Shown in pieces: positions 510 through 2,579 of a DNA stretch of 35,230 bases (within the stretch, counting starts at the first letter, position 1; every line of letters begins with the position of its first letter). The DNA is taken from NCBI GenBank assembly GCA_035559535.1, contig DATMBG010000048.1, positions 1 through 35,230 of the forward strand, written 5' to 3'. The notes beneath the pieces were generated by a model. The model had not been told where the DNA came from and did no database searches. It was given only the letters and a program-made list of their open reading frames with translations. This DNA comes from Candidatus Limnocylindrales bacterium (GTDB taxonomy: Bacteria > Moduliflexota > Moduliflexia > Moduliflexales > JAUQPW01). Made by a program: the position numbers and the translations under genes.

Positions 510-1337
510 CTATTTTTTAGGCAGAACCGTTTTTTCAATCCCATCTTGCCCACAAATTGGGCACCGGGGATCTGAATAGATCTCGATGGAAAGGAGCCGG
601 TAATTTAGCTCATCGTAATAAAGGTAATAGGGGTGCTGATCCCCGGGGTTTATCAAATAGTTTACCAGTAAATTGAGTCCTATATTTGCTATGACAGCAT
701 TCAGGGTAATAACACTGGGAGAGGATAAATGGGTATTCTGAATATAACCGGTGGCCCGACGAGCCTGTTCCAGGGTTTCTGAGTATCCTTGAACTTTTAG
801 ACCCTGGCAGAGTAAACAGGGCCCTCCGGGTCTATAAAATCGAACCTGGGCCCCTTTTTCCTGAAGAGTCCCTTCGGGGGAAAGAATAATCCCAGACCCC
901 AGATCTAATAAAGGTTTTCCTTGCTGTGAGGCAAAGAGTTGCAAAGCCAGTCGGGAAAGATTATTATCTAGACCGCCAATCCAAACCTCTGGAGCAGGAA
1001 GAAGATCTTCAGTATCCAACAGGTTTTGGAGGTCGGTGGGAAAGGTTTTAACAAAGGCCTGGGGATTAAAAGAAAGGACGGTTTGTTTTAAAAACTCAAC
1101 TTTGTATTTGCCCACATCGGATTCTTGAACTCCTGGGAGCCTGTTAAAATTGGACAGTTCCACACGGTCAGGATCTATGAGAAGAAATTTGCTAAAACCC
1201 ACATGCATGGCACTTTGAACAAAGATGGCTCCAAGGCCGCCACATCCGAAAACGGCCAGGATGGTATCAAAGATTTTTTGTTGGGCCGCTTCTCCCAACC
1301 AACGAATATTTCGGTCCCACCGTTCTAAACTCAACAA
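510..1337 (-). CDS. E1/ThiF/HesA-like adenylating enzyme of a ubiquitin-like module
   Basis: 275 aa E1-like enzyme, predicted to adenylate the C-terminus of the Ubl encoded two genes upstream, in the cytoplasm. Visible ThiF-fold motifs are RWDRNIR (6-12), the nucleotide-binding loop GCGGLG (31-36), LIDPDRVELSNFNR (53-66), K77 and GLDNN (122-126). Two Cys pairs, C174/C177 and C259/C262, form the usual structural zinc site. No other cysteine occurs between 178 and 258, where ubiquitin-type E1 enzymes place the catalytic Cys, so it may act by adenylation only, like MoeB/ThiF. The start is TTG at 1337 (or the next TTG): an in-frame stop lies just upstream and no ATG is available, and the ribosome binding site is weak. 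It lies 60 bases after the E2-like gene on the same strand. Confidence 0.88.
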   Translation of the reverse strand: MLSLERWDRNIRWLGEAAQQKIFDTILAVFGCGGLGAIFVQSAMHVGFSKFLLIDPDRVELSNFNRLPGVQESDVGKYKVEFLKQTVLSFNPQAFVKTFPTDLQNLLDTEDLLPAPEVWIGGLDNNLSRLALQLFASQQGKPLLDLGSGIILSPEGTLQEKGAQVRFYRPGGPCLLCQGLKVQGYSETLEQARRATGYIQNTHLSSPSVITLNAVIANIGLNLLVNYLINPGDQHPYYLYYDELNYRLLSIEIYSDPRCPICGQDGIEKTVLPKK

Positions 1338-1397
1338 ATTATAAAGAAAGAAGAAAGAAGGCTAAATCTTCTCGTAGGATTTAACCTTCCTCTTCCC

Positions 1398-1814
1398 CTA
1401 CTGCCGCTTTCCCTGTTGGAGTTCTGCTAACTGAATGAGCAGCATTTCGATAAAAGTTAAGATGTTATCATCTGAATGCCAGACGGGATGGACGCATATC
1501 CAACACCAGCCTTTGTCTACATACCGGTTAAAGTGTGAATACTGACTATCGAAATAGTGAGGGATATCCACCCATTTCCCCTCCCGATTCATTTTTAATC
1601 CGGGACTGATATAAGCTTCCTCTAAACCAACTCCATATTGGTAAAAATCCGGGATGATAATCAATAGATTGGTCCATTTTTGATTAAACCCGGGCGGAAG
1701 TTTCACCCGATTGATCTGAACCCAGCTATAGTCGTAACTCCAGAGTACGTGATCTTTACCGTAGATTTTCTCACACAGTTCAATCTCTGTTTTCAACCGT
1801 TTGAGGTTGCGCAT
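1398..1814 (-). CDS. Prokaryotic E2-like (UBC-fold) protein
   Basis: 138 aa. I match this to the bacterial E2-like proteins usually called prokaryotic E2 family E. The match rests on the core order: a beta meander with LLIIIPDFYQ (50-59), ISPGL (69-73), an aromatic/His stretch HYF...HF (86-96), then GWCWICVHPVW (102-112) followed by SDDNILTFIEMLL (114-126). The last part resembles the W..W.RH...W...D.l.t motif that I recall for that family. C104 and C107 are the only candidate thioester cysteines near the expected place. Its position strongly supports the call: the ATG lies 5 bases after the Ubl stop codon and an E1-like gene follows. The proposed role is transfer of the activated Ubl; targets are unknown. 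Sequence divergence makes this the least certain of the three members. Confidence 0.68.
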   Translation of the reverse strand: MRNLKRLKTEIELCEKIYGKDHVLWSYDYSWVQINRVKLPPGFNQKWTNLLIIIPDFYQYGVGLEEAYISPGLKMNREGKWVDIPHYFDSQYSHFNRYVDKGWCWICVHPVWHSDDNILTFIEMLLIQLAELQQGKRQ

Positions 1815-1819
1815 AGAAC

Positions 1820-2035
1820 CTAACCAGAGGCAAAAGAACTGAGGACCTCGATCCGGGCCTGATCTTTAACCGGAATCGGATGATATTCGGGAACTCGGGT
1901 ATAGGAATCGGATTCGTCTTTAATCAGATAAATATCTTTGGTAGGGGGTATTTGAAGGGTTTTCCTTAACTCAGCTCCGGTTACTTTAGCCGGAACTTGC
2001 ACAGGATGTCCTTGCACATCGTAAAGGGTCGGCAT
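1820..2035 (-). CDS. Single-domain ubiquitin-like protein (beta-grasp, C-terminal Gly)
   Basis: 71 aa. The pattern VQGHPVQVP (8-16), VTGAELRKTLQIPP (18-31), then DIYLI (34-38) and the short strands to IEVLSSFASG resembles one unit of the multi-ubiquitin domain proteins of bacteria, in which the phrase T-G-x-E/Q-I/L marks the helix start. The chain ends in Ser-Gly directly before the stop, so a free C-terminal glycine would be ready for adenylation without proteolytic trimming. Only one beta-grasp copy is present, whereas many relatives carry several. It is followed after 5 bases by the E2-like gene and then the E1-like gene, which is the main support. ThiS/MoaD-type sulfur carriers are the alternative, but they normally end in Gly-Gly and do not pair with an E2. 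Confidence 0.72.
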   Translation of the reverse strand: MPTLYDVQGHPVQVPAKVTGAELRKTLQIPPTKDIYLIKDESDSYTRVPEYHPIPVKDQARIEVLSSFASG

Positions 2036-2135: not shown

Positions 2136-2579
2136 CTACCACCTTCCTAAAAAAGCCCTCCATTCTCGAATGGTATGATATCCCACATAACCAATAACCA
2201 AAATGAGGGCCAGAAGGAGAAGAGAGACCCAGTACACGGGATTATCTAAAAAGTGATCGTAGACGACCTTCAGGTAAAATCCTATCAAAATAAGATAGGT
2301 CACCGTTAAAAACAACATCAGCAGGTAAAGCCACCATTTATTCAGGGTTATAGCTAAAGCCCCGGATAAGATCGGAAGCCAAAGCCCTCCCCCATACCAG
2401 TTGTAAAAACCCAGTGAGCCTATGAAAAGTAAAACAGAGAGAATTTTTAATCCCCTTACCAGCATCCGAATCAGACGTGCAGATGTTCGCGGATAGGAAG
2501 AGGTAGAACGGGATGGATAAAAAGTTTCTGAAACTCCCAGGGGATTGACAGGTATCTCTCGTGACTGAACTTGTGGCAT
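2136..2579 (-). CDS. Small multi-pass membrane protein, function unknown
   Basis: 147 aa. The first 40 residues are polar and Ser/Pro/Arg-rich (SRSTSSYPRTSARLIR), probably cytoplasmic. Hydrophobic segments follow at about 43-59, 64-78, 82-104 and 115-133, giving three or four membrane helices, and the protein ends with a short basic tail. I do not recognise a family. The start is well supported by GGGAGG 12 bases upstream of the ATG and by a promoter with a perfect TTGACA. It is the first gene of the minus-strand run that continues into the Ubl-E2-E1 genes after 100 bases containing a hairpin, so cotranscription is possible but unproven. Whether it is a target, a membrane anchor or unrelated cannot be told from sequence. 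Confidence 0.65.
   Translation of the reverse strand: MPQVQSREIPVNPLGVSETFYPSRSTSSYPRTSARLIRMLVRGLKILSVLLFIGSLGFYNWYGGGLWLPILSGALAITLNKWWLYLLMLFLTVTYLILIGFYLKVVYDHFLDNPVYWVSLLLLALILVIGYVGYHTIREWRAFLGRW

Follow-up and report, generated by a model that had tools for sequence, protein, structure and literature searches.

The window analysed here (the whole stretch of DNA, 35,230 nucleotides) is contig C48 of a 5.6-Mb genome and carries on its minus strand three adjacent genes, encoding a ubiquitin-like protein (Ubl), an E2-like protein and an E1 enzyme. The three open reading frames were found exactly where the first-pass annotation had placed them, as was the 5-base gap from the Ubl stop to the E2 start; 60 bases separate the E2 and E1 genes. 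The features of the locus are as follows:

1820 to 2035, minus strand: Ubl (BubA-like), 71 aa, ATG start, ending ...SSFASG
1398 to 1814, minus strand: E2-like protein (BubB-like, Prok-E2_E family), 138 aa, ATG start
510 to 1337, minus strand: E1 (BubC-like), ThiF fold, 275 aa, TTG start
1338 to 1400, minus strand: hairpin between the E2 and E1 genes, a stem with a T-rich 3' arm, from congener alignment and z-scores
2136 to 2579, minus strand: hydrophobic (membrane) protein upstream of the Ubl, 147 aa, conserved in the congener

The genomes of one congener and two order-mates were used for comparison. The three genes recur in the congener in identical order and with the same flanks and are thus not an assembly accident, and dN/dS values between the two species (Nei-Gojobori; Ubl 0.205, E2 0.060, E1 0.143) place all three under purifying selection. 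In the two order-mates the E2 search came up empty and the ThiF matches were all generic, so that within its order the module is confined to this genus. The module is chromosomal, and its flanks, common to the two species, consist of an ammonium transporter and a flotillin-like gene on the 3' side and genes for a small membrane protein, an SH3-domain protein, a holin-like membrane protein and an enolase-superfamily enzyme on the 5' side. The hairpin between the E2 and E1 genes is strong (z-scores of -3.3 and -4.3), recurs in the congener with a longer stem, and is a possible attenuator or processing site. The membrane protein at 2136-2579 has a dN/dS of 0.32 against the congener and no Pfam family, and is at most a candidate operon member. 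Between it and the Ubl gene, the intergenic region at 2040-2110 holds a palindrome-like sequence, AATCAGAGGCCAGGAGCCGGGGAGCTTCTGACCCCTGATTTCTGACTTCTGGTCC, which is well conserved in the congener and may be a dispersed repeat.

The Ubl is a single-domain beta-grasp protein whose terminal Gly71 (codon 1823-1825) is immediately followed by the stop codon. A profile made from the Ubls of other loci alone recovered it at E = 9e-5 among 6,201 ORFs, and the terminal Gly is the sole invariant column in an alignment of 33 family Ubls. The AlphaFold model of the Ubl (pLDDT 77.9) has the beta-grasp order and, in a Foldseek search of the PDB, best matched bacterial multi-ubiquitin proteins (TM-score by query length 0.74-0.81), with ThiS and ubiquitin also included in the list.

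The E1 matched the ThiF family (PF00899) at E = 9.5e-32, and the profile of its subfamily matched BubCD of the Citrobacter Bub system (PDB 9eae, 9ea4, 9eav) at 1.8e-39, ahead of MoeB at 1.8e-31. Its adenylation residues are intact, as are the zinc cysteines of two CxxC pairs (C174/C177 and C259/C262). No conserved catalytic Cys was found outside the CxxC pairs in 65 E1s, and the C32 position of the glycine-rich loop is occupied by Cys in just 6 of the 65. The TTG start codon is preceded by no clear Shine-Dalgarno sequence.

The E2-like sequence searched alone matched the Pfam family Prok-E2_E below threshold (E = 0.014), and this family was matched by 37 of 39 aligned E2 homologues. A five-sequence E2 profile reached Citrobacter BubB in the PDB at 2e-6, and a 39-sequence profile reached it at 5.5e-15, with UBE2L6 at 8e-4. 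BubB was also the top Foldseek match of the E2 AlphaFold model (pLDDT 88.8, pTM 0.84; E = 9.9e-4, probability 1.00, with modest TM-scores of 0.55-0.58), followed by FANCL, UBE2L6 and UBE2L3, all at non-significant E. Profiles and predicted beta-grasp and UBC-like folds therefore bear out the Ubl and E2 calls of the first-pass annotation, which had rested on family-like patterns and context, and the Pfam and BubCD matches do the same for its E1/ThiF call.

To place the module, the E1 alignment was used as query against 84,980 species genomes, which gave 80 loci. When scan, plasmid and genome relatives were pooled, 66 E2 homologues were found beside such an E1, a few of these loci being near-identical copies. 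The Ubl-E2-E1 order is nearly constant in the family (about 60 loci), whose hosts include Pseudomonadota, Actinomycetota, Armatimonadota, Acidobacteriota, Chloroflexota, Planctomycetota, Cyanobacteriota and haloarchaea. Plasmid copies in Deinococcus and Bradyrhizobium are annotated as multiubiquitin, E2/UBC and ThiF; a search of plasmids with the single E2 sequence gave no E2 relative, E1 relatives did turn up there, and two weak E1 matches came from viral contigs. The likeness to multi-ubiquitin/E2-family-E neighbourhoods noticed in the first-pass annotation was thus correct, and the three genes co-occur widely as well as in the congener. Among distant relatives, two loci (L009 in G041 and L015 in G349) have Ubl-E2-JAB/E1 genes beside a large serine recombinase, a cysteine-rich protein and an ATPase read as HerA/FtsK-like, the one in G041 having no Pfam match, and both loci seem to be carried by related mobile elements. 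In the window (2136-2579) and in these two loci (L009:5148-5459 and L015:8924-9946), the gene immediately 5' of the Ubl encodes a hydrophobic membrane protein, a different one each time.

A family of this kind has been described before. The fifth operon type of Iyer, Burroughs and Aravind 2006 (Table 1 row 6e) comprises one to three Ubls, a stand-alone E2/RWD-like protein encoded between the Ubl and E1 genes, a JAB-E1 and a Zn finger, and its E2-like proteins were judged inactive because they were taken to lack a Cys (PMC1779556). This type has since received the name Bub and been characterised structurally, and a paper citing the Bub work puts the number of operons identified at 544 (PMC13373217); together with the recurrence across about 60 loci, this makes the kind a known one. 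In contrast to the earlier view of inactivity, about half of the E2s examined here do have a Cys. The putative nucleophile of the window E2 is Cys107 (codon 1494-1496), in the motif W-I-C-V-H, and across the 66 E2s this column holds Cys in 34, Ser in 31 and Asp in one. On a tree built from the adjacent E1, the Cys and Ser types are strongly clustered, with 3 changes where shuffling gave 21. The E2 of G041 has no His two residues past the Cys, which makes the active-site motif a loose one. BubB has Ser at this column, and the contrast with the window E2, drawn from sequences alone, reads as variation within the family rather than as exclusion from Bub. The haloarchaeal loci L043 and L046 have two tandem E2 homologues each, one of them in L043 having the Asp.

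The clearest departure from the family concerns the JAB peptidase. A JAB profile found nothing in six frames across the whole window, and it detected a JAB in every one of the 61 other loci with an E2, 53 times as part of the E1 and 8 times in an ORF of its own; among the E2-bearing loci examined, only the window and its congener lack one. The first-pass annotation had described a minimal form with one Ubl unit and no visible protease. The missing protease stands, and the single Ubl unit is common across the family, so that it is the lack of a JAB that makes the locus minimal. G041, the nearest locus on the E1 tree, carries a JAB-E1 fusion, and loss of the JAB in this genus is therefore likely, although both branches are long. 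That the JAB was lost as the Ubl is pre-matured was rejected as a sufficient reason, since several tail-less Ubls retain a JAB. A PF14462 search of the window's own genome gave no match, but neither did the controls. The only Prok-JAB in this genome lies in a sulfur-assimilation cluster, between the genes for cysteine synthase and a rhodanese-MoeB E1. In the latter gene (G000:C42, L017:161-1342, minus strand; also G001:C64), the very codon of the conserved catalytic Cys is an in-frame TGA in the window's species and the congener alike (...APT-U-DEAGVLG...); with a strong tRNA-Sec in the window's genome (74.5 bits), this makes the E1 a likely selenoprotein, and MoeB selenoproteins are on record (PMC1088965).

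The window was compared feature by feature with known systems. It shares with Bub and the fifth operon type a terminal-Gly beta-grasp Ubl encoded beside the E2, a Prok-E2_E-family (BubB) E2 gene between the Ubl and E1 genes, and a ThiF-fold E1 of the BubC subfamily; the signature GYI.G...PsVItLN is common to BubCD and the window E1. It differs from Citrobacter Bub in that BubCD is a fusion with the JAB at its N-terminus and in that the Citrobacter Ubl is, by PDB title, multi-domain and filament-forming, and it differs from the fifth type as described in having neither a JAB, fused or adjacent, nor a Zn-finger gene. Because Ubl, E2, E1 and gene order all agree and the JAB does not, the locus is classed from its predicted proteins as a JAB-less, Cys-type Bub-like operon, not canonical Bub. 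The divergent, sub-threshold E2 sequence, the modest TM-scores to BubB and the loose active-site motif are counted against a Bub-type assignment. All the same, a pared-down ubiquitin-like conjugation operon of the Bub type is judged, with good confidence, to be what these genes probably encode. Bil (BilABCD) likewise has a Ubl, E2, E1 conjugation set, together with a JAB-type peptidase and an anti-phage role. The peptidase is absent here, and the window E1 and E2 match Bub proteins best.

Defence against phage or stress, a role that has been proposed for Bub and shown for the related Bil, is a fairly unlikely alternative. Two relatives do lie beside large serine recombinases, and Bub operons are reported often to adjoin DNA-damage-responsive regulators (PMC13373217); among the neighbours scanned here, however, no defence gene and no Bub-associated DNA-damage regulator was recognised, both species have the same flanks, and protection by Bub against phage is stated in that paper as not demonstrated.

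Sulfur transfer is a very unlikely role, in which the E1 would adenylate the Ubl to give a thiocarboxylate donor like ThiS, MoaD or CysO, with the E2-like protein as an accessory. The pairing of a terminal-Gly beta-grasp protein with a ThiF-fold adenylase is common to the window and to ThiS-ThiF and MoaD-MoeB, ThiS is among the fold matches of the Ubl, and the E1 is without a conserved catalytic Cys. Against this, an E2-fold protein with a conserved nucleophile always adjoins the E1 in the family, the Ubl ends in a single Gly and not GlyGly, the neighbours include no biosynthetic, rhodanese or other sulfurtransferase gene, and the genome already has its rhodanese-MoeB-JAB-cysteine synthase cluster.

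The genome also has a complete Pup-type proteasome operon (G000:C36, L117:4638-11429) encoding the ARC/Mpa ATPase, Dop, Pup (89 aa, ending ...QRGGE), PrcB, PrcA and PafA, so that, counting the Ubl module, two protein-tagging systems of unrelated kinds occur in one organism. That the Ubl tags proteins for the cell's own 20S proteasome, alongside Pup, is highly improbable: Cys-type E2s are commoner in proteasome-bearing hosts (18 of 28 against 3 of 22; raw Fisher p = 4e-4), but this association is phylogenetically non-independent, with one or two independent pairs, and shared ancestry explains it equally well; moreover, the Ubl and Pup-proteasome loci are on separate contigs and several Cys-type hosts show no proteasome. 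A link between Cys-type E2s and host proteasomes is, with so few independent pairs, not claimed. Finally, a decaying Bub remnant, on its way out with the JAB gone and an E1 lacking a clear Shine-Dalgarno sequence before its TTG start, is barely credible, given that adenylation residues, zinc cysteines, E2 nucleophile and Ubl Gly are all intact and that dN/dS is 0.06-0.21 across two species.

As a Bub-type conjugation operon, the module would work as follows. Gly71, at the C-terminus of the Ubl and mature from the outset, would be adenylated by the E1 at the expense of ATP. As the E1 lacks a conserved catalytic Cys, the Ubl would pass straight from the E1-bound Ubl-AMP to Cys107 of the E2 as a thioester, and the E2 would then attach it to a nucleophile on the target. 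The Citrobacter Bub pathway reportedly proceeds through oxyester intermediates and not through thioesters. Lacking a cognate JAB, the system would need no cut to mature the Ubl, and its conjugates would be removed slowly, by another peptidase, or never; the analysis turned up no target, E3 or dedicated deconjugase. The context weakly favours, as the likeliest role, a chromosomally encoded modification for regulation or quality control over a mobile anti-phage island. A more specific proposal is speculative and quite unlikely to hold as a whole: a Bub pathway that is Cys-based and free of a JAB would be a fixed chromosomal trait of this Pup-proteasome bacterium and would place a housekeeping tag that is in effect irreversible, the E2 receiving the Ubl directly from the adenylate and the pathway perhaps being linked to the proteasome.

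If the Bub-type reading is true, a bacterial Ubl pathway would persist on tag, E1 and E2, without the JAB that every relative examined has kept. Across the family, Ser and Cys alternate as the E2 nucleophile, and the mechanism established for a Ser-type enzyme may not apply to half of the members.
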